Assembly (NCBI RefSeq): GCF_016406125.1
Contig: NZ_CP066339.1
Coordinates: 4,030,001 to 4,094,000, forward strand
Direction of reading: 5' to 3'
Source of the DNA: Alicyclobacillus sp. SO9
GTDB lineage: Bacteria; Bacillota; Bacilli; Alicyclobacillales; Alicyclobacillaceae
Length of the DNA stretch: 64,000 nt
Under the pieces are notes generated by a model. It made no database searches. It was not told where the DNA came from and worked only from the letters and a program-made list of their open reading frames with translations. How positions within the stretch are numbered: the stretch's first letter is position 1; every line of letters begins with the position of its first letter. The position numbers and the translations under genes were made by a program. Shown piece by piece: positions 27,238-39,226 of this stretch.

Positions 27238-27729
27238 GTGACTAGTTCAGCATTAGCCGCATTGGTCGGAAATGATGCACAGAGCGTGGACGAGCTCATC
27301 ACGGTCGTCGCTGGGATGGTGCGTTCGTGCCTTGCGGCAATGCATGAGGAGGAACAAATTCATGACGACAATACCGTCGAAAGTTCACCCAGAACACCTG
27401 AAGAGAACAGCGATTGTGTACATTCGTCAGTCGACCATAGCCCAAGTTCGGTTTCACCGGGAGAGCACGGAACGCCAGTATGCCCTTCGGGAGAGAGCTC
27501 TCACCCTAGGATGGGCTTCGGAACAAATTCAGGTGATCGACGAAGACCTCGGAATTTCAGGGTCTGGCCGTTCTCAGCGCTTGGGCTTCCAAAACCTTGT
27601 GGCTCAAGTCTCACTTGGCGAAGTTGGCGCCATCTTTGGTCTGGAGATTTCCCGCTTAGCACGTTCTTCAGCAGATCTACTGCGTCTGCTCGAACTCTGC
27701 GGATTATTCAACACAATCGTAGTGGATGA
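27238..27729 (+). CDS. Small overlapping ORF ahead of the recombinase (uncertain)
   Basis: A GTG at 27238 follows GGAGG by 8 bases, and the first 40 or so residues (SALAALVGNDAQSVDELITV, then AGMVRSCLAAMHEEE) look like a real helical protein. Beyond about 27362 the frame overlaps the recombinase gene and becomes Ser/Pro-rich, as expected of an out-of-frame reading. It may be a short coupled leader protein, or the remains of a longer gene whose end was replaced by the recombinase start. Confidence 0.35.
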   Translation: MTSSALAALVGNDAQSVDELITVVAGMVRSCLAAMHEEEQIHDDNTVESSPRTPEENSDCVHSSVDHSPSSVSPGEHGTPVCPSGESSHPRMGFGTNSGDRRRPRNFRVWPFSALGLPKPCGSSLTWRSWRHLWSGDFPLSTFFSRSTASARTLRIIQHNRSG

Positions 27730-29404
27730 AGACGGCATCTACGACATGCGAGATTTTAATGACCGGTTAATTCTCGGCTTCAAAGGAACCATGAGCGAAG
27801 CAGAACTGCATTTCCTGCGTGCTCGGCTAATCGGTGGCAAGAAGAACAAAGCGAAAAAAGGTGAACTCCGCTTTCCGCTGCCCGTTGGATATGTGTACGA
27901 CACCACCGGACAGACAGTTTTGGATCCGGACGAAGAGGTCCAAACTGCTGTTCACAATGTATTTCATGCATTTCGTACGACAGGCAGCGCCTACGGCGTA
28001 GTTCAGTTCTTTGCCCAAAACGGCCTCCGGTTTCCAAAACGAGCCTACGGTGGTGCTTGGGCTGGAAAACTCGTTTGGGCAACACTGAACCACAGCCGAG
28101 TTTTAGGGATCCTATACAATCCTGCATATGCAGGGGCCTATGTATATGGTCGGTATCGAGACCAAAAGCGCGTGAATCCACAAGGACTGTTTATTCATCA
28201 CACCGTGCTCCTTCCCCGTGAGGAGTGGGAAGTTTTCATTCCAGATCATCACCCAGGCTATATCACGTGGGAGGAATATGAGAGAAATCTAAAGCAGCTA
28301 CATTCGAACCGTACCAACCTTGAGAAAAGCGGAGCAGCACGAGAAGGCACAGCTCTACTTCAAGGACTCGTTATATGTGGAAAATGTGGTCGCCGCATGA
28401 GTGTACGCTACACCAGCAACGGAGGAATCCATCCACATTATGAATGTAAAGGGCGGTGGGAACACGGACACCGCGCCACTTGCACTACCGTGCCGGCGTT
28501 GAAAATCGACCAAGCTATCTCAGAGCGTCTGTTGCAGGCCATGCAACCCGCTGAATTAGAGCTTGCTCTACAGGTAATGGACAAACTGCTGCATGAAGAA
28601 GATGATGTAGATAAGGGCTGGAAGTTATCTCTAGAACGAGCACGCTACGAAGCAGACCGAGCGGAGAGGCAATACCAACAGGTAGAACCAGAAAATCGCC
28701 TAGTAGCGCGTAGTCTTGAGGTAAGATGGAACGAAAAGCTCGCCGAATTGGCAGAACTTCAGGAACAGTACACCCAGTATGTAGATCGACGTAGTTGGCG
28801 GCCTACAGAACACGACAAAGCGGAGATTTTAAGCCTTGCGAAGGAATTACCTCGAATTTGGTCCAAATCATCCACTACACCCAAGGACCGCAAACGCATT
28901 CTTCGCCTACTCGTTGAAGATGTGACCATAGTTGCTGAGGCAAGAAACCCGAATGTCCGACTTGGCTTGCGCTGGCGCAACCAACATTGCGAAGAACTAT
29001 GGGTGCGTAAGCCGCTGCCACCACATATAGCAACGAAACATTCATCTGAGACCGTTGAGCTCGTTCGCAGGTTAGCCGAAACGATGATAGACCGCCAGAT
29101 TGTAAAGTATTTAAACGAATCAGGTATACGCACATCAGGTGGCAGGATGTTCACGCTTGACTCCATCAAGTGGATTCGCTACGTACACCGCATTCCTGGA
29201 TATACTTCACAACGCCGTGGTTTATCCGTCAAACAAGTTGCGGAACGACTCAAAGTGACTTCAGGGGTTGTCTACTACTGGCTCAACCGTGGCATTCTTA
29301 CGGGCACGAAAGTGGCTCCAGGCTGTCCATGGGACATTCAACTAGATGACCGAAAGGAGGTCGAACTGCGCAAGCGAGTCCAGGAATCTAGCCATTTAAA
29401 TTAA
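27362..29404 (+). CDS. Large serine recombinase with C-terminal HTH
   Basis: The 680-residue protein has a resolvase catalytic domain (TAIVYIRQSTIAQVR, nucleophile Ser24; GLEISRLARSSADL), a recombinase domain (about 165-290), a zinc ribbon (CGKCGRRM, then CKGRW and a later Cys) and a long coiled-coil segment. A C-terminal HTH/MerR-like segment (LSVKQVAERLKVTSGVVYYWLNRG) follows. The ATG at 27362 is preceded by GAGGAGG at 9 bases, so I reject the in-frame start 30 codons earlier. It mediates integration and possibly excision of the surrounding element. The HTH tail is not part of the basic large serine integrase layout. Confidence 0.92.
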   Translation: MTTIPSKVHPEHLKRTAIVYIRQSTIAQVRFHRESTERQYALRERALTLGWASEQIQVIDEDLGISGSGRSQRLGFQNLVAQVSLGEVGAIFGLEISRLARSSADLLRLLELCGLFNTIVVDEDGIYDMRDFNDRLILGFKGTMSEAELHFLRARLIGGKKNKAKKGELRFPLPVGYVYDTTGQTVLDPDEEVQTAVHNVFHAFRTTGSAYGVVQFFAQNGLRFPKRAYGGAWAGKLVWATLNHSRVLGILYNPAYAGAYVYGRYRDQKRVNPQGLFIHHTVLLPREEWEVFIPDHHPGYITWEEYERNLKQLHSNRTNLEKSGAAREGTALLQGLVICGKCGRRMSVRYTSNGGIHPHYECKGRWEHGHRATCTTVPALKIDQAISERLLQAMQPAELELALQVMDKLLHEEDDVDKGWKLSLERARYEADRAERQYQQVEPENRLVARSLEVRWNEKLAELAELQEQYTQYVDRRSWRPTEHDKAEILSLAKELPRIWSKSSTTPKDRKRILRLLVEDVTIVAEARNPNVRLGLRWRNQHCEELWVRKPLPPHIATKHSSETVELVRRLAETMIDRQIVKYLNESGIRTSGGRMFTLDSIKWIRYVHRIPGYTSQRRGLSVKQVAERLKVTSGVVYYWLNRGILTGTKVAPGCPWDIQLDDRKEVELRKRVQESSHLN

Positions 29405-29475
29405 GCAGCATACTATGAATTTTGTTAATAGCGCTCTAAGTCCAAAACCTTATTGGGAGGCATGTAGTATGAATT

Positions 29476-29721
29476 CACCGTCGGAATACCTAGTCCCCGC
29501 TTCCCGCCTCCGGGTTTCGGGATTTCGACTCGTCTGACAGGTTGCGGTTTGTAGGTTCCTGCGAGCAACTGCTGACGAATGTCAGCCCAGTGTTCCATGA
29601 CGTAACTTCGTAAGGATTTTACGTCGACGCCATCGACCCCTGGAGCTCCCTTGTTCGACTCAACTCGTTTCAGGGCTAGGAGCAGGTTTTCCCTCTCTAG
29701 CATCCTTTCCAGCAATAACAT
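29476..29721 (-). pseudogene. ltrA: Group II intron reverse transcriptase/maturase, N-terminal part
   Basis: The frame encodes MLLLERMLERENLLLALKRV, APGVDGVDVKSL and RRVEIPKPGGGKRGLGIPTV and is then broken by the insertion at 29476-29478. Beyond the break 16 foreign residues precede a stop at 29425. The frame is open upstream to 29958, but the extra 79 residues are read from intron leader RNA and have no counterpart in class IIC maturases, so I place the start at 29721. The other part is at 25489-26505. Confidence 0.85.
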
Positions 29722-29958
29722 ACTGTCTTCGCAGGGTAGTGTCTCTACTTGTGCCGACGATGAGCTAAACCCTCTTTGTTCAGCCCCTTGCGGCTTCACC
29801 GCTACCTTCTGAACCGAGGCTCCTCGCGGAGTATTCTGCTGTCGATGTTCATCATGCGAACGCATAAAGTCTGCCCTCACTTCGTGTTCAGTCCTTCCAG
29901 CGACAAGCGCTTGTCGCTGTACTATGACCTCTGCTGACCCCTGCCGGTTCAGCGTCAT

Positions 29959-30272
29959 CTCTCGATGACGGTTACTAGTCCTACTAGCGTATCCAGCAGG
30001 TCTCCCCAGATAAGAACGGACTCTTTCCTCTCATGCACCTGCCACATTTACTGCCGTAGCCCTTGGCAACTTGGGACTTTGTTGTGTTCAGGCAACTCGT
30101 CCGACTATGACAGCCTCAGATGTGATTCGTGTCCCTCAGGTCGAGAGTTTGCCTCCAGCTTCCTTCAGATTCCACCTCACGATGGACACCCTTGCTCTTG
30201 GCTAACGGTAGGTCTGTTGCCAACCCCCGTTCGGGACTTTCACCCTAAAGATTCCGCCCATGCTGGGCGTAC
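29959..30272 (-). ncRNA. Group IIC intron 5' region (domain I and following)
   Basis: On the minus strand this stretch starts GTACGCCCAGCATGGGCG and continues with the conserved group II blocks AGGGTGAAAGTCCCGAACGG and TTGGCAACAGACCTACCG. It encodes no protein. The first five bases are GTACG instead of the consensus GTGCG. Confidence 0.65.
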
Positions 30273-30283
30273 TATGAAGAAAT

Positions 30284-30303
30284 GACCCGGATTTATCCGG
30301 GCC
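30284..30303 (-). terminator. Terminator hairpin, probable original tRNA-Leu terminator and intron target
   Basis: On the minus strand GGCCCGGAT and ATCCGGGTC form a 9-bp stem with a 2-base loop, followed by ATTTCTTC. The intron starts 11 bases after the stem. The copy of the tRNA-Leu 3' end at 30320-30333 lies 16 bases upstream, so before the island inserted this hairpin would have terminated the tRNA gene. Confidence 0.75.
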
Positions 30304-30319
30304 ATTTGTTTATGGCTAA

Positions 30320-30333
30320 TGGTGTCGGGAAGG
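30320..30333. repeat. att-type direct repeat, distal copy of the tRNA-Leu 3' end
   Basis: TGGTGTCGGGAAGG is identical, in the same orientation, to 39142-39155, the last 14 bases of the tRNA-Leu gene including CCA. This is the signature of integration by a tyrosine recombinase into a tRNA 3' end. Confidence 0.75.
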
Positions 30334-30486
30334 CACGTCTAAATCCTCAAAATGACGCTTGATGCTTAACCCTGAACTGACGCACACTTCGGCCGTGACG
30401 AAATCCAGCTGCCCAGCAAAACAAGTGGAACAAGTGGAGGTTGTTTAAGAAAAGCAAGAATAGGGACAAATGTACATTTACGTTGG

Positions 30487-30723
30487 TTAGCAAGGAGGGA
30501 GTTTATTAAAAAAAGTAAGGGGAACGGTGTTTAAGAGAAATAATCCTCTGATTGAAATCCTCGATGTGGTAAACCGCTCAGTCTCGTACCACTTGAAATA
30601 CTCAAGATACAAATCCAGATTAATCTTGTCACAATCCCAATATACGGGAATAGCTGCAATTTTGCTCGGATGGTACAAATACGCTCTCGTGTGACCATCC
30701 GTGAAAACACCTGTTGCTGGTGC
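30487..30723 (-). pseudogene. Fragment of a ParB-like N-terminal domain protein
   Basis: The open frame, with no proper start, reads TGVFTDGHTRAYLYHPSKIA, then IPVYWDCDKINLDLYLEYFKW. TDGHTRA followed by IPVYW is a motif of ParB/sulfiredoxin-like domain proteins. A TGA (30724-30726) cuts the frame upstream where the first half of the domain should be. Only about 75 residues remain, so it is a remnant. An alternative is a small unrelated gene starting at 30678. Confidence 0.45.
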
Positions 30724-30827
30724 TCAATCTAACGCGCCGATATAGTAAGCCTACACAGGCGAAATTATAGAAGGCTATCAATCGCGTTTTTTCTTAAAGA
30801 AGAATCCGCATATTATACGAGATTGAA

Positions 30828-30856
30828 GCTGCACGGCCAATAATAAACCGTGCAGC
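30828..30856 (-). terminator. Hairpin after the 20-codon gene
   Basis: GCTGCACGG (30828-30836) and CCGTGCAGC (30848-30856) form a perfect 9-bp stem with an 11-base loop, starting 8 bases past the stop of the small gene on the minus strand. The tail TTCAATC is a weak T-tract. Confidence 0.5.
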
Positions 30857-30863
30857 CCACAAC

Positions 30864-30926
30864 TTACCTCCAGGTGCTTGGCTGACAGATTACCATTGTT
30901 TCTTGGCTTAAGACTTCTACTTTCAT
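30864..30926 (-). CDS. 20-residue peptide gene of unknown function
   Basis: The ATG at 30926 is preceded by GGGAGGTGA with 6 bases of spacing, one of the best ribosome sites in the island. The 20-codon frame starts MKVEVLSQET and ends CQPSTWR, and a perfect hairpin follows the stop. There is no signal peptide, but there is one Cys. It lies on the same strand as the MccB-like gene, separated from it by the two IS110 genes. It could be a modified-peptide precursor; this is unproven. Confidence 0.45.
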   Translation of the reverse strand: MKVEVLSQETMVICQPSTWR

Positions 30927-31059
30927 GATATTCACCTCCCACTATAAATTAATGTTTTCTCCTATTTACTCTCTTATTCTCACGATTACGCACCTTGACT
31001 ATTTGAGAGAGATTACCAGAATGCTAGATGAGCGAATTTTCAAACGGGTACTCCGTAGC

Positions 31060-31343
31060 AGGAACAGAGATTGGTGCTGTTTTACCAATACATGGAACAT
31101 AAATCTGTTCGCACATTTGGATGTCCACACGTTCCCTTGCGGTTTACCCTCCCATGTCACACTGGGTCTATGCCCTCACATTCCTTCGTACTACCTCTCA
31201 AGGGGTGGATGCCGTTTCTTGCTCCTTTACTGGGTCGTTGCCCTTATGGTGTGGATACTACGGCTTATCCGTGCTTCTGTTTGTCTTGGCGATTCATCGT
31301 GTACAAGCGAGTAAATCGAACTGACGAGTTTGATTCAAATCGG
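31060..31343 (-). other. Structured non-coding end of the first IS110 element (bridge-RNA candidate)
   Basis: About 280 bases downstream of the transposase carry no credible gene but include repeated CCCAGT-type segments with pairing potential (for example CCCAGTGTGACATGGG on the minus strand). In IS1111-type members of the IS110 family the guide (bridge) RNA is encoded after the transposase gene. The element ends are not determined. The stretch 30927-31059 shows nothing else I can name. Confidence 0.35.
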
Positions 31344-32642
31344 TTAAGCTGCCACCTGTAGTTGGGACCTCCGAAGTGGCCCCAGTAAATCCTCAGCGTT
31401 GTACTGAACTTGCTTTGTCCCCAATGTGTGTAGAACACGAATGAGTTTTCCACATAGTGCAATGAGCGACTGTTTCTTCTTCAAGGGATTATGTGCCCGT
31501 GTCGTGTAATACTCGTGCAGTGCCTTGAATTCAGCGTTCTTAGCTACCATCGGTAATATTGCCCGAAATAGTAATGCCCTCAGCCGAGAACGACCTCGTT
31601 TGGTAATGCCTGTTTTTCCTTTTCTTACCCCAGAACTGTTCTCTTTGAGATTCAGTCCAGCAAGCCGAATGATCTGTTGTCCATGCTCATATCCCTGTAG
31701 CTCACCGACTTCAGCCAAGAATCCAGCAAGTGTCGTAAAACCCATTCCTGGCACACTGAGCATTTCTTCTGTGCCTGGAATTTGGTTCAGTAGTTGCTCT
31801 ACCTGAGCCATGATTTCATCACGCTGCCGTGTGAACATGTCGTACTGTTCCAGCAAAGCTTTCATCTCTATCCTGGCAGCTGTGAGCCCCTCTTTCAGAC
31901 CAATGGACCTTTCAGCGGTACTGACAAGCCGTATGGCTCGCTTCATACCGACAGCCCGCTTCACACCATCCTTTTTCCACTGCCTCACAACCTCACTGGC
32001 GCCTAGCGAGAGTATGTCCTGCGGAAACGGAGACGTACGCAGTGTAATGAGTGACGCCTTGCCTTCCCAGTCCTTAAACACCTGGGTGTATTCCGGAAAG
32101 AAGCGATCAAGCCAGTTCTGAATCCGCATTTGCACTTGCCCCAAATTCACCATGACCTTCTCTCTGAGGTTCATGAGGATTCTTAAATCCGCATAAACAC
32201 CAGTCGGGAGTTTGGGCTCGGTGTACTTGCCGTCTTTCACGAGATTGGCAATGACCTTAGCATCCTTGTAGTCGTTTTTCGTCGGTGAGTTATCCTCTAA
32301 ATCTTTGCTCTTGTTGACGTGATGTGGGTTCACAAGCACGAATCGAACATTCAAGTCTTGTATGAAGGCACCTAACGGGAACCAGTAGTGTCCGGTCGGC
32401 TCGACGCCAAACACAACATCGGTTTTGCTGTGCAGTTGTTGCAACTCCTTCATCCACGTTACAAGTTTCGTTAGGCCCTCATCATCGTTACTGAACACAC
32501 ATTCTTTACCAAGCTCAATTCCACGAAAGTCAATGGCTCTTGCAACATGGGTGTGCTTTGCAATATCAGCACCCACAATGATGGTACAATCGGTAATTTG
32601 TTGAATTCGTTGATTTTGTTTCTGCTGCATCTTATACTTCAT
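31344..32642 (-). CDS. IS110-family transposase (first copy)
   Basis: The protein has about 432 residues. It has the N-terminal DEDD RuvC-like domain with Asp in IIVGADIAKHTH, Glu in FGVEPTGHYW and the pair in NDYKDAKVIANLV. The C-terminal Transposase_20 domain reads LLSVPGMGFTTLAGFLAEVG and LAGLNLKENSSG. The ATG at 32642 has AGGAGG 9 bases upstream, so the in-frame start at 32660 is rejected. It is an RNA-guided recombinase family. Its ribosome site is embedded in a long hairpin (32646-32709). It differs clearly from the second IS110 protein in this island. Confidence 0.92.
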   Translation of the reverse strand: MKYKMQQKQNQRIQQITDCTIIVGADIAKHTHVARAIDFRGIELGKECVFSNDDEGLTKLVTWMKELQQLHSKTDVVFGVEPTGHYWFPLGAFIQDLNVRFVLVNPHHVNKSKDLEDNSPTKNDYKDAKVIANLVKDGKYTEPKLPTGVYADLRILMNLREKVMVNLGQVQMRIQNWLDRFFPEYTQVFKDWEGKASLITLRTSPFPQDILSLGASEVVRQWKKDGVKRAVGMKRAIRLVSTAERSIGLKEGLTAARIEMKALLEQYDMFTRQRDEIMAQVEQLLNQIPGTEEMLSVPGMGFTTLAGFLAEVGELQGYEHGQQIIRLAGLNLKENSSGVRKGKTGITKRGRSRLRALLFRAILPMVAKNAEFKALHEYYTTRAHNPLKKKQSLIALCGKLIRVLHTLGTKQVQYNAEDLLGPLRRSQLQVAA

Positions 32643-32645
32643 GTT

Positions 32646-32715
32646 GAGCGTCCTCCTCAATTAGGGAATGAATGTCCTGCATTCGGAACCCAGCATACAG
32701 GAGGCGCTCTTTTTT
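32646..32715. promoter_or_regulatory. Long hairpin covering the transposase ribosome site, with T-run on the plus strand
   Basis: GAGCGTCCTCCT (32646-32657) pairs with AGGAGGCGCTC (32699-32709) apart from one bulged T, and TTTTTT follows on the plus strand. Read rightward it is an intrinsic terminator. Read leftward, the stem hides the AGGAGG ribosome site of the transposase in transcripts that start outside, a known way IS elements avoid expression from impinging transcription. Confidence 0.55.
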
Positions 32716-32879
32716 GTTCAAACCCGAAATTAATTCATTACAGGAATAGCTCCTTGTATATTAAGAACAGCTGCTGAATTGGTTTACGTAAAACCATAAT
32801 GTAGTTGCTCTATTAAATTTCTGTTCCTTGAAAACCTAATCAAATGTTGATAGACCTTTCTGTGACAAAGTGAGTGTTT

Positions 32880-33180
32880 ACGACCTCGGGCTGATCTTGG
32901 GAAAATAGCCGTAGGTGTCTACCAAGGGAATGTTCCTATCCCTCCCGTTGCCCCTCATCTGAGGGTGTCTTCCGAGGAAAGATTGTTCCCCTGGCCCCAT
33001 GGAATAGACCTACACGCTGACTGTTTCCCGGTCCGTCATCCCTCCTGCCAGCAGAAGGAGGCTCGTGCACCGATGACGTCTGGTGTATTCCAATAGCTCG
33101 CAAGGCTGTCGTTCATGGGTTTCCCAGGGTCATCCCGAGGTCGCAGGCATCTGCATCCCAACCTGAAGGAGGTGATTATA
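32880..33180 (+). other. Structured 5' non-coding end of the second IS110 element (bridge-RNA candidate)
   Basis: About 300 bases without a credible gene precede the transposase start. They include CCCTC-ATCT-GAGGG (32952-32965), a perfect small hairpin, and several GC-rich segments. In the IS110 group the long left end before the transposase encodes the bridge RNA with target- and donor-binding loops. The exact element boundary is not determined. Confidence 0.4.
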
Positions 33181-34431
33181 TTGACTTCCTCCTTGTTTGT
33201 CGGAATTGATGTAGGCAGCCAAGAGAACGTGGTTTGCTGCTTAACACAGGACGATGAGAAACGACCTGTGAGTCGATTCACCGTTACCAACAATCGTCCT
33301 GGGATTTTAGAGTTTCAGGATCGTATCTCCAAGCTGGCAAAACAGAAACAGGCTGAAGAGATTCTCTTTGGTCTCGAACATACTGGATGCTACTCAACCC
33401 ATGCCGCCATGTATCTGCAACGTCATTTGGACTTTGGTGTTCAGCGTAGGGTCTACGTCTTTAACCCCAGTCTTATCAGGGAGTTTAAGAAATCCCATTA
33501 CCTGAGTGCCCCCAAGAACGATAGAGTAGATGCCTGGTTTATCGCAGCTAAGCTTCGGACAGGCCTTCTCCCGCATCCCTTTACCTGGAGCGAGCCGCTC
33601 ATGGCGTTGCAGCGCTTGACGCGAGCCCGCTACCACCTGATGCAGGATCTGTCTAGAGAGAGCAACTTCCTCATGACGAACTTGTATCTCAAGTTCAGTG
33701 ACTACAGCAGCACAGGTCCCTTTAAGAGAAACAAGCTCTCGGCAACTTCCATTGCTGTCATGGAGGAATTCGAATCCGTTGAGGAACTCTGTGAGATGCC
33801 CCTTGAGCGTCTCATTGAATTCCTTGTGGCACATGGCAAGAACCGATTCGAAAATCCTGAGGTCGTTGCTAAAGTGCTACAGAAGGCTGCTCGCTCCTCG
33901 TACCGGCTACCCCAGTCGATGTCGGACTCGGTCAATCTCGCAATGGCTTCTAGTATTCGCGTGATTCGAACGGTACAAGAGCAACTGAAGGCACTACGCA
34001 AAGGAATTGAGGACCACTTGGCGACGATCCCGCAAACCCTTGATTCCATTCCCGGTATCGGTCCCATTCTTGCTTCCGGCATTGTAGCTGAGCTGGATGT
34101 AAGCCAGTTTAAGAGCCACGCGGAAGCCGCTAAACACGCCGGGCTCGCTTGGACCGTTCACCAGTCCGGGAAATTCACAGCCAACCGAACTCGACTGATT
34201 CATTCTGGCAACCGCTACCTCAAGTACTACATGGTTGAAGCGGCAAACAGTGTCCGGGTGCACGACCCTGTTTTCGCCGAGTACTATGCCAAGAAGAGAG
34301 CGGAGCCAAAGGAATTTGCCGAGGGACGTACCCTTGCGCTTACAGCCCGGAAACTGATGCGAGTGGTCTTCTATCTGCTAAAGACCAACCGACTTTACAC
34401 TCCGGAAGGAGGGGTCCGACAACGCGCATAA
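33181..34431 (+). CDS. IS110-family transposase (second copy)
   Basis: The 416-residue protein has the DEDD motif set (LFVGIDVGSQENV, FGLEHTGCYS, NDRVDAWFIAAKL) and the C-terminal Transposase_20 part (LDSIPGIGPILASGIVAELD and AKHAGLAWTVHQSGKF). I start at TTG 33181, which follows AGGAGGTG by 7 bases. The in-frame start at 33115 adds 22 residues with no family match. It is read rightward and ends about 170 bases before the end of the MccB-like gene, so insertion may have removed whatever followed that gene. Confidence 0.92.
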   Translation: MTSSLFVGIDVGSQENVVCCLTQDDEKRPVSRFTVTNNRPGILEFQDRISKLAKQKQAEEILFGLEHTGCYSTHAAMYLQRHLDFGVQRRVYVFNPSLIREFKKSHYLSAPKNDRVDAWFIAAKLRTGLLPHPFTWSEPLMALQRLTRARYHLMQDLSRESNFLMTNLYLKFSDYSSTGPFKRNKLSATSIAVMEEFESVEELCEMPLERLIEFLVAHGKNRFENPEVVAKVLQKAARSSYRLPQSMSDSVNLAMASSIRVIRTVQEQLKALRKGIEDHLATIPQTLDSIPGIGPILASGIVAELDVSQFKSHAEAAKHAGLAWTVHQSGKFTANRTRLIHSGNRYLKYYMVEAANSVRVHDPVFAEYYAKKRAEPKEFAEGRTLALTARKLMRVVFYLLKTNRLYTPEGGVRQRA

Positions 34432-34462
34432 ACTTACCGCGATCGACCTCTATCCACCAGTT

Positions 34463-34495
34463 CCTAGGTTTTTCACCATATTTTAAAAATCTAGG
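34463..34495. repeat. Inverted repeat after the second IS110 gene
   Basis: CCTAGGTTTTT (34463-34473) and AAAAATCTAGG (34485-34495) can pair over 11 positions with one G-U. It lies between the convergent transposase and MccB-like genes and may be a bidirectional terminator or part of the IS right end. Confidence 0.45.
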
Positions 34496-34603
34496 TAGGG
34501 TGGGCTTAGTTGAGTATTGCTAATTTTGGCACCACGTCCAACGTAGTAGCAATTCGACAAATATTATGTCACCTTAGGGCCTTGACATCGTACCGCTGCT
34601 CTT

Positions 34604-35665
34604 TCAATGGCACACAGTACAGTTCTTGTGTCTCTTTATTTCGGTTAATTTCAGTTCAAGGCTTTCGATATCAATTTCCACCTGAGTATCCGTAAACAGT
34701 GGTTGAGAATAACCGGTTAGCACCTTCACTATCTCCGCACATTGCATACTAGTGACGAGACTCACAAGCGGATAGTATGAGCCACCTGATTTAGCGCGAC
34801 TAATGAGTTCCGAACCGCTATCTTGGAACTTATTTTTCTCTTTTAACCATAAAGTATGGCAATTACTGCAAGCGGTTTCATCAGGGATACACGTTTGACC
34901 CACGCTACCCCCATGGTAGTTGTAGCCTCCAGCGATGAAGTGAGGAATTTTATGTTCCCAACAAGCAGTACTTACCCATATTCCTGTCTGTTCCGTACTT
35001 GGCTGATCCATACAGTCCACGATGAGATCAATCGGGCGTTCTTGTTTCAAGATTCTCACAATGTCATCTGACCCTGAAATACTTTCACGATATGTAGAGA
35101 CATGGGAAGAATCAACGCGCTCCTCTATCCACGTTCTGATTACTTCTATCTTCGGTTTTCCAACGTCCTTCTTTCGAAACATTGATGTACGATTAAGATT
35201 CGTTAAATCAACTGTGTCTGGGTCCACCAAAACAAAATTACGAACACCCACCATGGCAAGTTGTTGTGTCAAACTAGCCCCAATTCCACCTGTACCTAAG
35301 ACAAGAACTTTGGCGTGTTCCAAACGTTCACGGATCTCTGGTCCATTAAATCCTGCTCCGGTAAAAAATACATCCTGTCGATTCAACATTTGATTTTCAT
35401 TTGAAGTTGCTGACCGTGGTACGACTATGCCCACTTCTAATAACGAATGTAGTGCTGATTCGTAGTCCTTTTGAGATACATGATGTTTATCTGATATGGT
35501 ACTGAACCAGTTCGTGGAGTCTTCTTGCCTTCCAATTGATAGGAGAGTCTCCAACGCAGGATCATATGTCAGCTTCAGTTCTTTTCTTGATGAGTACATT
35601 CTTACGATAATTACATTGTCATTTTTTCTAACTTCAATGTATGGATTTACCACATAATCTCCCAT
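34604..35665 (-). CDS. MccB-like peptide-adenylating E1 enzyme with N-terminal RRE-like domain
   Basis: The 353-residue protein has the length and layout of microcin C7 synthetase MccB. A mixed alpha/beta N-terminal module (about 1-85) resembles an RRE peptide-binding domain. A ThiF/MoeB-type adenylation domain follows, with GTGGIG at 124-129, the arginine finger in NLNRT (Arg159), DVGKPK, Asp217 in DCMD, and the zinc pairs CSNC (266/269) and CTVC (349/352). The segment NRQDVFFTGAG ahead of the nucleotide loop also aligns with MccB. It starts 28 bases after a 41-codon exported-peptide gene. A sulfur-carrier activating enzyme is the alternative, but no ThiS-like partner is nearby. Confidence 0.8.
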   Translation of the reverse strand: MGDYVVNPYIEVRKNDNVIIVRMYSSRKELKLTYDPALETLLSIGRQEDSTNWFSTISDKHHVSQKDYESALHSLLEVGIVVPRSATSNENQMLNRQDVFFTGAGFNGPEIRERLEHAKVLVLGTGGIGASLTQQLAMVGVRNFVLVDPDTVDLTNLNRTSMFRKKDVGKPKIEVIRTWIEERVDSSHVSTYRESISGSDDIVRILKQERPIDLIVDCMDQPSTEQTGIWVSTACWEHKIPHFIAGGYNYHGGSVGQTCIPDETACSNCHTLWLKEKNKFQDSGSELISRAKSGGSYYPLVSLVTSMQCAEIVKVLTGYSQPLFTDTQVEIDIESLELKLTEIKRHKNCTVCH

Positions 35666-35693
35666 GTGCGTCTCTGCCCCCTTAGCGCTGTCT

Positions 35694-35819
35694 CTATTGT
35701 GACAGCGTAGTAACTACATCAACGCCGGGCCCGGGAATTTCAGTGGTCGATACAGATGCTAATGCGTTCAAAGTGGTTACTGCGGTCAAAAGTAACAAGA
35801 TATAAGTCAGCCTTTTCAT
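35694..35819 (-). CDS. 41-residue exported peptide precursor (signalling peptide or RiPP precursor candidate)
   Basis: The ATG at 35819 follows AAGGAGAGGG by 6 bases. The product starts MKRLTYILLLLTAVTTLNAL, a textbook signal sequence with an AxA-type cleavage site after residue 22. It then has a short tail containing STTEIPGPGVDVVTTLSQ. Length and layout match Phr/NprX/PapR-type pheromone precursors. It is divergent from an HTH-TPR regulator (87 bases between starts) and 28 bases ahead of the MccB-like gene, so it may be the regulator's ligand, the enzyme's substrate, or both. Confidence 0.65.
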   Translation of the reverse strand: MKRLTYILLLLTAVTTLNALASVSTTEIPGPGVDVVTTLSQ

Positions 35820-35867
35820 CTCGATCCCTCTCCTTCGCTGTCATTTATGGTACTCTATAACAAATAC

Positions 35868-35879
35868 TCTCGCACGAGA
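35868..35879. promoter_or_regulatory. Candidate operator between peptide gene and HTH-TPR regulator
   Basis: TCTCG and CGAGA flank a CA dinucleotide as a perfect 5-bp inverted repeat, in the middle of the 87-base divergent intergenic region. A short dyad here is what an XRE-type dimer controlling both directions would bind. Promoter hexamers around it are weak. Confidence 0.45.
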
Positions 35880-35906
35880 AAATTCAGAATAAAAGGGGGA
35901 TTTTCG

Positions 35907-37049
35907 GTGCCCATTGGTGAGAAAATTCGTACACTGAGGGTAAGCCGAGGGTTAACTCAGAAACAATTAGTAAAAGGTCTATATGAAAGGTCCTACATCA
36001 GCTTAATAGAACGAGGTAAAATAAAGCCAACTACTGAAGCTCTATCCCTAATTGCGTCTCGCTTAGGTGTCAGTATGGAAGAATTAGCCGCCCGAGACCA
36101 AGAGACTTTCGATCATTCACTACTTCTATACAAACAGGGGATTGAGACGCAAGACGTATCCAATCTCGAGAGGGCATGGAAAGGTTTTTTTCAATGCGGT
36201 TCATTGAATAACATGGTATCTTGCGTGAAAAAATGGGCCTCACTGGTATCAAACAGTGAAGTCCTAACTGCCCTGAAGACTACGTTAAGGCGTGCGCAGG
36301 GAACTGATATTAATACATATATAAAATGCGAGTTAAGAGTCCTCATGGGTAACTGCTATTTCAATATGAGTATGTTAAAAAATGCGGTATGGGAGTATGA
36401 GGACATTTTAAGTGATTATCCTCCGGAAAGTTTCCTATCAAGAATCCATGTAAACCTTGGCAGCGCCATGATGGAACTAGCGGACTATAATTCTGCTGTC
36501 ACCTCGTTTCAAAACGCATTAAAATATGATACGGAACCGCGCAGGGCTATGAGGGCTTATCTTGGCCTCGGAAGATGCTATCGATATCTTGCCCATTCCG
36601 ACAAAGCACTAGAGTATTTTAAACAAGTCAATTGTTGGGCAAAAGAGCATGATGAAGACCTATTTTATTTATCACACCACTCCATTGGAGTGGTGTTATT
36701 AGATCAAGGCAACGTCTCAGAAGGCATTTCATATTTAACAAAAGTGTGGAGTTACTACAAAATGAAACACCTCTCTCTTCACGAAGCAGAAGTTGTAGAG
36801 GAATTCATTAGAGCAGATACTTATTTTAAAGACTATACTCGCGCTCTGTCTTGGTGCGAATACGGTTTATTACTTTTAGGTGAACAAAACAAACATCTTA
36901 GCGGAAGGATACTACTTTGGAAGAGTCAGATATACAAAACCTTGGGGAACGATGAGACTGCAAAAAATCTAGAATCAGCAGCCAAAGTTGTGTTAAACGG
37001 TGATTTTCACACGCATCAAAAGTATCTAAATGCTTTTACGCTTATCTGA
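35907..37049 (+). CDS. RRNPP-type regulator: XRE HTH plus TPR repeats
   Basis: Residues 1-60 are an XRE helix-turn-helix (IGEKIRTLRVSRGLTQKQLV, YISLIERGKIKPTTEAL). The rest (about 85-375) consists of helical repeats, including clear TPRs such as SRIHVNLGSAMMELADYNSA and RAYLGLGRCYRYLAHSDKA. HTH followed by TPRs over about 380 residues is the layout of PlcR/NprR/Rgg-like regulators that bind exported and re-imported peptides. GTG at 35907 has AGGGGG 7 bases upstream; the earlier in-frame start at 35847 is rejected. It is divergent from a Phr-like peptide gene. Confidence 0.87.
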   Translation: MPIGEKIRTLRVSRGLTQKQLVKGLYERSYISLIERGKIKPTTEALSLIASRLGVSMEELAARDQETFDHSLLLYKQGIETQDVSNLERAWKGFFQCGSLNNMVSCVKKWASLVSNSEVLTALKTTLRRAQGTDINTYIKCELRVLMGNCYFNMSMLKNAVWEYEDILSDYPPESFLSRIHVNLGSAMMELADYNSAVTSFQNALKYDTEPRRAMRAYLGLGRCYRYLAHSDKALEYFKQVNCWAKEHDEDLFYLSHHSIGVVLLDQGNVSEGISYLTKVWSYYKMKHLSLHEAEVVEEFIRADTYFKDYTRALSWCEYGLLLLGEQNKHLSGRILLWKSQIYKTLGNDETAKNLESAAKVVLNGDFHTHQKYLNAFTLI

Positions 37050-37069
37050 GGGACGGGAACCTAAAGAAA

Positions 37070-37282
37070 TCAAAGACAGAAATTGTGTAAATTCACAATA
37101 ATGGAGTCCACAAAACGATTAATATCCAATCCAGAATTGCGATAAAACACAGAATGCAAAGTGAGTCCATTAGCCGAGAGGACGCCTGGATGGTTACACC
37201 CGATAAGGCAAGCGTTCGATACCGGATATCGCAAATGTGAGGACGATTTCCCGTGATTTGTAACAACGGCATCCCCATTCAT
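37070..37282 (-). CDS. Hypothetical small protein, 70 residues
   Basis: The ATG at 37282 follows GAGGG by 6 bases and lies 17 bases after the stop of a 39-codon membrane peptide on the same strand. The product (MNGDAVVTNHGKSSSHLRYP onward) is polar, with three Cys and several His. I recognise no family. An overlapping frame in another phase (37093-37278) is equally long, so coding is uncertain. Confidence 0.35.
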   Translation of the reverse strand: MNGDAVVTNHGKSSSHLRYPVSNACLIGCNHPGVLSANGLTLHSVFYRNSGLDINRFVDSIIVNLHNFCL

Positions 37283-37299
37283 TTATTACCCTCTTCGAA

Positions 37300-37419
37300 C
37301 TATTCTTTAAGCTTCTTTATAAACATATACAAAATCGATACTACACTAAAAACAAACAGACCAATGATTCCTGCAGTCACTGGAATTTTGTGAAACACCA
37401 ACCATGCAACAGTTGGCAT
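37300..37419 (-). CDS. Hypothetical 39-residue membrane peptide
   Basis: The frame from ATG 37419 encodes MPTVAWLVFHKIPVTAGIIG, a hydrophobic segment and the basic tail YMFIKKLKE: one transmembrane helix with a positive C terminus. A second frame starting nearby (ATG after GAGGAG, MYKFLMAVIIYMITY) overlaps it, which could indicate a frameshifted longer gene. Single-helix peptides of this kind include toxins and small regulators; the function is unknown. Confidence 0.4.
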   Translation of the reverse strand: MPTVAWLVFHKIPVTAGIIGLFVFSVVSILYMFIKKLKE

Positions 37420-37946
37420 ACGTTATCATATAAATAATTACTGCCATTAGAAATTTATACATAATTTATACTCCTCGTCATGCAGAGTTGCACCCTCTTC
37501 GGCCCAACAATCTTCCAATCATATACAACTTACAGCGAGAAATCTCCCACTGTCAAGGCAGGAAGCGGCCTGCGCATTTATCGGCACAATACTTGCAGCA
37601 AAGACTGAAAACCTTGCCGCTATGGGGATAGGAGAAGCCTTAGGCACGCTTACTGGACTAATGCGGTCAGGCAACATGTCGCTCCTGAACGACGAAAATG
37701 GAACAATGTGGATTGGATAGTCTTCGCCGCATACGATAAACATCGGTAGCTCACTAATTGCCAACATCATTGCCCTTATACGGAAATTAGTCCGCGGGTA
37801 TCTCATAGCGTTACCATTCCAATGTCATGAAAACCAGTACCATACTAGAGTAATATGCGACTTAAATATCATTCTTTCTTCGTGCTACCCCTCATGAAAT
37901 CAATGAATTTCTACATGTCAATTATTATGTAAATACTTAATTTGGG
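37420..37946. other. Intergenic stretch with no confident gene
   Basis: On the plus strand a frame without a start runs to TAG at 37718-37720 and reads EAACAFIGTILAAKTENLAA, then MGIGEALGTLTGLMRSGNMS. This looks protein-like and may be a gene fragment. The complementary frame (37519-37806) is probably its shadow. Nothing else is recognisable. Confidence 0.3.
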
Positions 37947-38237
37947 TTGCACCGGCTGTCACAACCTTTGTGCTGCTACGACCCGAATCTAATCTACAGA
38001 TACCAAGCGTATCGACAGCGACATGTACTTCTCCTCTGTCACTGGATTCGGGTTCTCATGGCAGAGCGAGATTTTACAGTGAAAGTGTTGTCTTATTCGT
38101 CGGATGTATCTAGGGCGACGATATCGGCTTTAAGAAGTGGTCATGTTAAGCGCCTGAACAGAGAAACATCTGAGCTGATAGCAGACGCTTTAGGTGTCCG
38201 GCTTAACATGATATGGCCTAATAAGCTTGATGAATAG
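37947..38237 (+). CDS. Small XRE-family HTH protein
   Basis: The C-terminal 65 residues form a Cro/CI-type helix-turn-helix: IRVLMAERDFTVKVLSYSSD, VSRATISALRSGHVKR, TSELIADALGVRLNMIWPN. The first 35 residues (Cys- and Tyr-rich) may not be translated; ATG 38058 is an alternative start but has no good ribosome site. It is typical of phage or island control genes. Its end overlaps the opposite-strand coiled-coil gene, so one of the two ends is probably decayed. Confidence 0.6.
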   Translation: MHRLSQPLCCYDPNLIYRYQAYRQRHVLLLCHWIRVLMAERDFTVKVLSYSSDVSRATISALRSGHVKRLNRETSELIADALGVRLNMIWPNKLDE

Positions 38238-38566
38238 TGTGTCCTTGAGAAGGTGAATATGCGAGGAAATAACAGGAACTGCGTATCAGCAGCCCTGAAT
38301 ATTGGAACGATGGTTTTATTAATGTTCATCTGCTTGAAGCAAATAGATGTCTTTTCGGCTTTGGCCAGCCGAGTACGCTGATGGTCCAGTCTTTGATTTA
38401 CAACTGCCAACTGACCTTCGACACGGTCTAAGCGTTCGTTTGCTTCTCTTCTGAAATCCTCCAACTTGTTGTCAATGGAATCAGTTTTAGCGCGTACATC
38501 TGCTACATTGCTGATGAGTTGCGCAAGCAAGTCTTCAATTCGGTCTAATTGACTCTTATCCGACAT
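38141..38566 (-). CDS. Coiled-coil protein, probably with a decayed C terminus
   Basis: From the ATG at 38566 the product begins MSDKSQLDRIEDLLAQLISN and continues as a charged heptad coil (DSIDNKLEDFRREANERLDR). After about residue 75 the sequence loses this character and overlaps the opposite XRE gene by 97 bases. Short coiled-coil proteins like this are common next to integrases. A frameshift or deletion in the second half is likely. Confidence 0.55.
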   Translation of the reverse strand: MSDKSQLDRIEDLLAQLISNVADVRAKTDSIDNKLEDFRREANERLDRVEGQLAVVNQRLDHQRTRLAKAEKTSICFKQMNINKTIVPIFRAADTQFLLFPRIFTFSRTHYSSSLLGHIMLSRTPKASAISSDVSLFRRLT

Positions 38567-38617
38567 GGTTTGTATCGCTCCCGCTCTTGTCACTCTGCTT
38601 CTGATTGTACAACAAAT

Positions 38618-38894
38618 TTAGTCATTTTCCTCATCCAAATATATCTTGGTCACTTTATCACGCTCGTGTCCCAGCAGGTCCGACAGGGTCTTGCGTGCTC
38701 CTGAGGCGGATGCCTTGATTGCGACATTCATCGTAACGCTCCCTTGCATACAGGTGGCTCAACCTGTGGAATGTAATGTGTGTTCTATTGCGAAGCGCTC
38801 CAATCGCTTTCAGATATGCAGCATCACGCCGTTCTGCCTGGCGATAATCCTCTTCGACTTTTGAACGATGATTGGCAATCCCTCGGAAAACCGC
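38618..38894 (-). pseudogene. Tyrosine recombinase (integrase) C-terminal remnant, frameshifted
   Basis: One frame encodes KVEEDYRQAERRDAAYLKAI and then HITFHRLSHLYARERYDECR. Shifting frame near 38720 continues with ASGARKTLSDLLGHERDKVTKIYLDEEND and a stop at 38618-38620. HRLSH, LLGH and the final Y are the catalytic block of phage-type integrases. The N-terminal domains are missing (TAA at 38895-38897). It lies about 250 bases from the tRNA-Leu att site, the normal place for the island's integrase. Confidence 0.75.
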
Positions 38895-39086
38895 TTACTG
38901 CTTCGGAGAATCCATTTATCCCCTTCAGAAAAAGGAGAGATCAAGATTTTGTATTACCCTTAAAACCCATTCTTGAAAGGCGAGCTAATAATCACCATCA
39001 TTTTCAATACCAAGGTGAATCTGACACTCAACTCTCCCTTCACCTCATGGAGCTCCCGAAGCATCCCATTTTAGCCCATAAAGAAA

Positions 39087-39114
39087 TATAGGCCGGACAG
39101 CTCCGGCCTATATC
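39087..39114 (-). terminator. tRNA-Leu terminator supplied by the island
   Basis: ATATAGGCCGGA and TCCGGCCTATAT form a perfect 12-bp stem with loop CAGC, followed on the minus strand by TTTCTTTAT. It lies 27 bases past the tRNA 3' end, on the island side of the att repeat. It therefore replaces the terminator displaced to 30284-30303. Confidence 0.8.
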
Positions 39115-39141
39115 ACATCTTGATATGGTAATGCAAATTGT

Positions 39142-39155
39142 TGGTGTCGGGAAGG
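39142..39155. repeat. att-type direct repeat at the tRNA-Leu 3' end
   Basis: TGGTGTCGGGAAGG is the complement of the last 14 bases of the tRNA (including CCA) and is repeated at 30320-30333. Flanking bases differ at both ends. Confidence 0.75.
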
Positions 39156-39226
39156 GGACTTGAACCCCTACGGATTTCTCCACACGCCCCTCAAACGTGC
39201 GCGTCTGCCGATTCCGCCACCCCGAC
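39142..39226 (-). tRNA. tRNA-Leu (anticodon GAG)
   Basis: On the minus strand the gene starts GTCGGGGTGGCGGAATCGGC and ends TTCCCGACACCA with encoded CCA. Acceptor GTCGGGG pairs with TCCCGAC. The anticodon stem CACGT/GCGTG holds the loop TTGAGGG, giving GAG. A variable arm (TGGAGAAATCCG type) and T arm AGGGG-TTCAAGT-CCCCT are present, as for a class II tRNA. The 3' 14 bases are the island attachment site. Confidence 0.95.

Follow-up and report, generated by a model that had tools for sequence, protein, structure and literature searches.

Organization of the locus

The window, a stretch of 64,000 nucleotides from Alicyclobacillus sp. SO9, contains a gene encoding an HTH-TPR regulator and, divergent from it, an open reading frame (ORF) of 41 codons with the sequence MKRLTYILLLLTAVTTLNALASVSTTEIPGPGVDVVTTLSQ (Table 1). 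A preliminary description had given the coordinates, strand and length of this ORF correctly, and the divergent arrangement that it reported for the two genes is also seen here. The ATG starts 10 nt beyond an AAGGAG Shine-Dalgarno (SD) sequence, in keeping with the strong ribosome site claimed for the gene. The N-terminal part of the 41-mer comprises a charged n-region, a hydrophobic core and a signal-peptidase-like site, ALA/S, as read by eye and in a hydrophobicity scan. This signal-like N-terminus fits the claim of a secreted peptide, and cleavage at the predicted site would leave a tail of 20 residues, not the 19 given previously. The peptide gene heads an enzyme gene, as had been described: a gene of the ThiF family lies 28 nt behind its end on the same strand. 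No Pfam and no NCBIfam family matched the 41-mer when both databases were scanned.

Table 1. Genes and sequence elements around the peptide ORF, in window coordinates.
Feature	Position	Strand	Basis
IS110 transposase, convergent to the ThiF gene	33115..34431	+	Pfam, NCBIfam
25-codon ORF with TTG start and SD AGGTGA, directly behind the ThiF gene; candidate alternative substrate	34483..34560	-	Position
MccB-like adenylyltransferase of the ThiF family, 28 nt downstream of the peptide gene	34604..35665	-	Pfam ThiF, MccB match, aligned residues
Proposed pheromone propeptide gene, 41 aa	35694..35819	-	ORF reading, relatives, alignment, codon comparison
Conserved core codons (EIPGPGVDVV, residues 27-36), proposed pheromone core	35712..35741	-	Alignment and codon comparison
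Signal-sequence-like part, residues 1-21, ending in ALA	35757..35819	-	Sequence and hydrophobicity scan
SD AAGGAG of the peptide gene	35830..35835	-	Sequence and ORF scan
Possible -10 element TATAGA for the peptide gene, lacking a good -35	35854..35859	-	Weak, inferred
Candidate operator TCTCG-CA-CGAGA	35868..35879	.	TCTCGTGC conservation in 5 intergenic regions
HTH-TPR regulator, PlcR-like RRNPP-type receptor, GTG start	35907..37049	+	Pfam HTH_3 and TPR, family profile, relatives

The regulator has the N-terminal HTH and C-terminal TPR repeats of RRNPP receptors (Pfam HTH_3 and TPR), and next to its gene lies a short ORF with the basic N-terminus and hydrophobic signal-like part (the latter from the hydrophobicity scan only) that such systems call for. 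Among the best 60 of 129 matches of a profile of the regulator family were PlcR, aligned over positions 3-258 from the HTH through the TPR region (E 5.5e-15), and also Rap proteins. The AimR model of Pfam matched the regulator weakly, below its own cut-off, and no Rgg model was found among the 14 Pfam and 18 NCBIfam matches of the window at E<=0.1. The predicted fold of the regulator adds little, its match being general to TPR proteins: in a single-sequence model (pLDDT 68.9), the predicted TPR part superposed as well on unrelated TPR proteins as on PlcR-PapR7 (3u3w; Z 18.6, rmsd 3.4, 194 residues) or Rap-CSF (4gyo; Z 19.6, rmsd 6.1, 239 residues). The best 50 Foldseek rows for the model contained TPR proteins in general and did not include PlcR.

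Regarding the surroundings, overlapping small membrane-type ORFs in two frames are found behind the regulator (37300-37462) and look like one gene broken by a frameshift. The interval 27272-39226 includes a serine recombinase, a group II intron reverse-transcriptase fragment and two IS110 transposases, and a tRNA-Leu is located at 39142-39226; the recombinase, intron fragment, IS110 elements and tRNA suggest that the locus may lie within a mobile island.

Distribution of the regulator and the peptide

Among 59 genomes of the order, the regulator or a relative was present in 14 (E<=1e-15), counting the source genome; the two closest relatives (in genomes G028 and G020) are 45% identical. The stretches around the regulators of the 13 other genomes were compared together with the window. 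Alignment A1 included 11 of the 14 regulators. Excluded were L059, which nearly duplicates L057, L061 with its internal stop, and L063, interrupted by an IS110. Outside the order, the 11-regulator profile was run against 398 genomes each from the class and the phylum, with 4 candidates scored per genome; no match reached E<=1e-90, and the best had E-values of about 1e-42 and 1e-44, respectively. Viral contigs gave no match to alignment A1, phages none to the regulator family at 1e-10, and plasmids a single record at 1e-20, from A. fastidiosus. A short-pattern scan of genome contigs, of a kind that reaches close relatives, returned two HTH-only matches.

At 10 of the 14 regulator loci there is a small ORF of secreted type whose core is PG[VI]. 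It is divergent from the regulator in 9, these being the nine loci with PGV; the peptide was not found at the remaining four (L057, L058, L059 and L060). With cut-offs that were fixed after a first look at the data, 118 SD-preceded, signal-like ORFs of 25-75 aa were collected from the 13 related stretches and the window; 9 contain PGV, and every one of these is the ORF divergent from the regulator. The placement of the PGV ORF beside the regulator is therefore more than chance. When the 59 genomes were searched with a peptide profile, its own nine rows were returned (E<=3e-12), and among the three best new matches (L134, L135 and L116; the remainder had E 0.08 or more) two were convincing by their place. 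One, in G006, is a 42-aa ORF with a GTG start, a strong SD and the core VIGPGIDIV (E 0.05), located 1.2 kb upstream of the family regulator, here a pseudogene, on the same strand. The other, in G052, has SIPGPGVQLV within a 46-codon ORF with a GTG start and without a clear SD (E 1.4e-3). This ORF (L134:1489-1629, minus strand) is divergent from a second, different HTH-TPR regulator (L134:1754-2986, plus strand). The match in L135 belongs to a longer frame of 137 codons and was dropped.

On the A. fastidiosus plasmid (NZ_CP104068.1, L137:807-3514), the family regulator is split by an IS110 transposase gene and the peptide ORF is intact; this ORF has no gene in the annotation table viewed, which is incomplete by design. 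This case suggests that such peptide genes are easily missed.

A conserved internal core in the peptide

P-G-V are the only invariant columns across nine aligned peptides, and the block EIPGPGVDVV is identical in the window and its two nearest relatives (L053 and L054, from G028 and G020). Lack of conservation of the frame in related islands had been named as evidence that would speak against the gene. The frame is kept in 9 relatives besides the window, and a comparison of synonymous and nonsynonymous changes shows the core of the two nearest relatives varying at third positions only. Six of the 10 core codons vary among the three loci, with 6, 5 and 4 nucleotide differences between pairs (window, G028, G020). 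Six random changes would all be synonymous with a frequency of 1.1e-4, a figure that overstates the case because the 10-codon block was picked for its identity. These observations make the ORF very probably a real gene.

The peptide is conserved together with its receptor, as expected of RRNPP pairs: it accompanies 10 of the 14 receptors, and over 8 pairs the similarities of cores and receptors were correlated (Mantel r 0.72, 156 of 40320 permutations), a relation that shared ancestry predicts likewise. The test used 8 of the 9 peptides, IS110-split, pseudogene and near-copy regulators having been left out of the alignment.

The last 5-10 residues had been proposed as the part in which to look for conservation. 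The alignment points elsewhere: the 5-7 residues behind the core are unconserved, with differing tails (TTLSQ, HVGVHQL and QVGVS) after an identical EIPGPGVDVV, and the signal-like parts ahead of it also differ in sequence. As judged from these comparisons, the putative pheromone code is internal (residues 27-36) and not in the last five residues. The core is C-terminal in L062, L064 and L065 and internal in the window, where, with an unconserved five-residue tail behind it, a second cleavage would be needed. No paper naming a PGV code was found in the literature by word searches, which are poor for sequence motifs.

The intergenic region

In five aligned intergenic regions TCTCGTGC is invariant, and in three it lies inside the dyad TCTCG-CA-CGAGA. 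The dyad of the window taken alone is not above shuffled sequence (P 0.55). In three other intergenic regions a TATACT box is preceded by palindromes with arms of 14-16 bp, which none of the 300 shuffles made for each region reached, and the candidate operator of the window is likewise upstream of TATAGA. A sigma-70 scan yielded 8 sites against 6.3 expected and no match in the divergent region; a dyad upstream of TATAGA without a sigma-70 match would fit an activator-dependent promoter. The operator pattern occurs at two sites in the genome, the other exact copy being inside an ORF. As the reversed control also gave 2, a wider regulon is without evidence, and the idea that the operator marks one was dropped.

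The ThiF-family enzyme

The best match of the ThiF protein among solved structures is MccB (2e-27), with PaaA at 1.4e-14. In the alignment, the Arg, Lys and Asp and the four Cys residues of MccB are kept, and the adenylation domain has intact ATP/Mg residues (Pfam ThiF, MccB alignment), so that the enzyme is apparently intact. In ThiF-like RiPP enzymes an N-terminal RRE binds the leader of the precursor; in the present protein about 100 residues precede the ThiF domain as delimited by Pfam, and the MccB match begins at residue 59. A single-sequence model of the protein (pLDDT 31.1) was too poor for use.

At E<=1e-20, its own genome was the only one of the 59 from the order in which the enzyme was found; a partial match (5.9e-16) occurs in G043. 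The best match in 398 genomes of the class is 28% identical, and relatives occur on 139 plasmid records, all below 60% identity. One of these, on a L. plantarum plasmid, has an MFS gene behind it. Short-pattern scans of genome and viral contigs with the ThiF protein, which reach close relatives, gave nothing useful. As the enzyme is confined to one genome of the order at this threshold, the peptide goes with the regulator and not with the enzyme, and a conserved pair including the ThiF gene was ruled out. Elsewhere, the genes behind the peptide encode an EAL protein, MauE and thioredoxin-like proteins, or a secreted-looking protein followed by a subtilase. Since these are unrelated, the ThiF enzyme is best taken as variable cargo, and it is probably a regulated cargo of a pheromone/receptor pair. 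Genomes that gave no match to the enzyme at E<=1e-20 have the identical core, and the signal thus seems independent of it. The operon may have been truncated by the IS110 transposase gene that converges on the ThiF gene.

In genus g25 the gene behind the peptide was scanned in L062 (440-1366) and encodes an EAL-domain protein; those in L064 (4479-5330) and L065 (4201-5055) were assigned by their similar start. If the g25 gene were regulated by the pheromone, cyclic-di-GMP would come under pheromone control.

A probable pheromone/receptor pair

The comparisons disclose, at the level of sequence, a conserved frame and core beside HTH-TPR regulators of a PlcR-like family, with a conserved intergenic footprint in the nearest relatives. 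The preliminary description is borne out as to the gene and its class: a peptide of secreted type, conserved in relatives, forms a pair with an RRNPP-like regulator, and its gene heads that of an enzyme. It is quite likely that the locus encodes an RRNPP-type pheromone/receptor pair with a PGV core, in which the 41-mer is the propeptide and the ThiF gene is under the control of the pair. The propeptide would be exported via Sec, and proteases would release a short peptide around IPGPGVDVV, to be imported by an oligopeptide permease; the genome encodes 12 oligopeptide-binding-type proteins (PF00496). Bound in the TPR groove of the regulator, the peptide would lead it to act at the palindrome upstream of the -10 and raise expression of the peptide, a positive feedback, and likewise of the gene behind it, here that of the MccB-like ThiF enzyme. 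Cell density would then turn on a peptide-modifying enzyme. Such a pair would offer a testable pheromone code, xIPGPGVDVV and its variants, in an order whose peptide signalling has been little described, and a case of an MccB-like enzyme behind a pair of this kind outside the streptococci.

Among known systems, PlcR-PapR of the Bacillus cereus group shares the HTH and TPR receptor, matched by the profile over most of PlcR, and an adjacent gene for a small secreted propeptide. papR follows plcR in the same orientation, and the PapR pheromone is C-terminal. The present locus departs from PlcR-PapR proper in its divergent peptide gene and in its core and operator sequences. Divergence had been set against the usual Phr layout, in which the peptide gene follows its receptor; the arrangement is nevertheless ordinary for SHP/Rgg groups I-II of streptococci and for LCP/RopB, according to the available text of PMC13361665, and the view of it as exceptional was rejected. 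The likeness to SHP/Rgg extends to enzyme genes, as 11 of the 21 S. thermophilus rgg regions have ThiF or radical-SAM genes (PMC12445099, in part). The receptor here, by contrast, is PlcR-like and the core is PGV, and SHPs are exported by PptAB and are unrecognized as Sec substrates (PMC10075063, in part). AloR-AloP of Paenibacillus polymyxa likewise combines a TPR receptor with the gene of a small secreted peptide (32-50 aa), but aloP is just downstream of aloR; the string PGV appears nowhere in the available text on this system (PMC7425212). Literature searches for RRNPP with Alicyclobacillus found nothing, those with Alicyclobacillaceae only PMC10075063, and those pairing ThiF with Alicyclobacillus nothing among the matches listed. 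PMC10075063, as far as its available text goes, counts 10 clusters of Alicyclobacillaceae as neighbours of RRNPP candidates; its tables may already contain this subfamily, so that priority is uncertain.

Alternative explanations

The 41-mer could instead be the substrate of the ThiF enzyme, that is, a RiPP precursor with its C-terminal part activated or cyclized, whether or not it signals. Its gene immediately precedes that of the enzyme, a position taken in L005 by a short precursor-like ORF (read by eye); the enzyme keeps the MccB residues listed above, and none of the 8 other aligned peptides has the tail TTLSQ. The enzyme shares its ThiF domain with the RiPP enzymes MccB, PaaA, GrcB, EnfB and IndF; it differs from them in having no transporter or protease gene directly beside its own and in being preceded by a peptide with a Sec-type signal, which the ORF of L005 lacks. 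By position there are two candidate precursors, the 41-mer upstream and the 25-codon ORF downstream, of which the 41-mer is the better supported, and the second weakens the case for it. Peptides with the identical core occur in G020 and G028, where the enzyme was not found at E<=1e-20, and it is the core that is conserved and not the C-terminus, the part that EnfB, for example, activates (PMC12250964, in part). On balance, a RiPP precursor is unlikely. Action of the enzyme on the pheromone, such as activation or cyclization of its TTLSQ end, is quite improbable; in that case the density signal that reaches the PlcR-type receptor in the cytoplasm would be a peptide with a chemical modification.

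Some short secreted peptides encoded next to regulators are bacteriocins. An antimicrobial or other effector peptide, regulated by the regulator but unsensed by it, would accord with this and with Alicyclobacillaceae clusters adjoining RRNPP candidates (PMC10075063, in part), but the core variants stand beside receptors ahead of the unrelated genes described above, and a short invariant core amid variable surroundings is the pattern of a ligand, which renders an effector highly doubtful. A chance ORF, or a leader in which the DNA rather than the peptide is conserved, is hardly credible: one antisense frame of the core is equally conserved in the three nearest genomes (9 of 9), but across nine loci it lacks a consistent start or length (a start codon ahead of the block in 3 of 9, open for only 12 codons in two), and the peptide recurs at 10 of 14 loci with core changes confined to third positions and differing signal-like sequences ahead of it.

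A probable further pheromone/receptor pair

The regulator profile also led to genus g51 (6.4-7.6 Mb), where all 8 matched genomes (L080, L082 and L084-L089) have a short signal-like ORF near an HTH-TPR gene, apparently on the opposite strand and beyond the 3' end of the regulator. These ORFs end in LDLNDP[VI]P followed by 1-5 residues and, with the HTH-TPR gene, probably constitute another pheromone/receptor pair.
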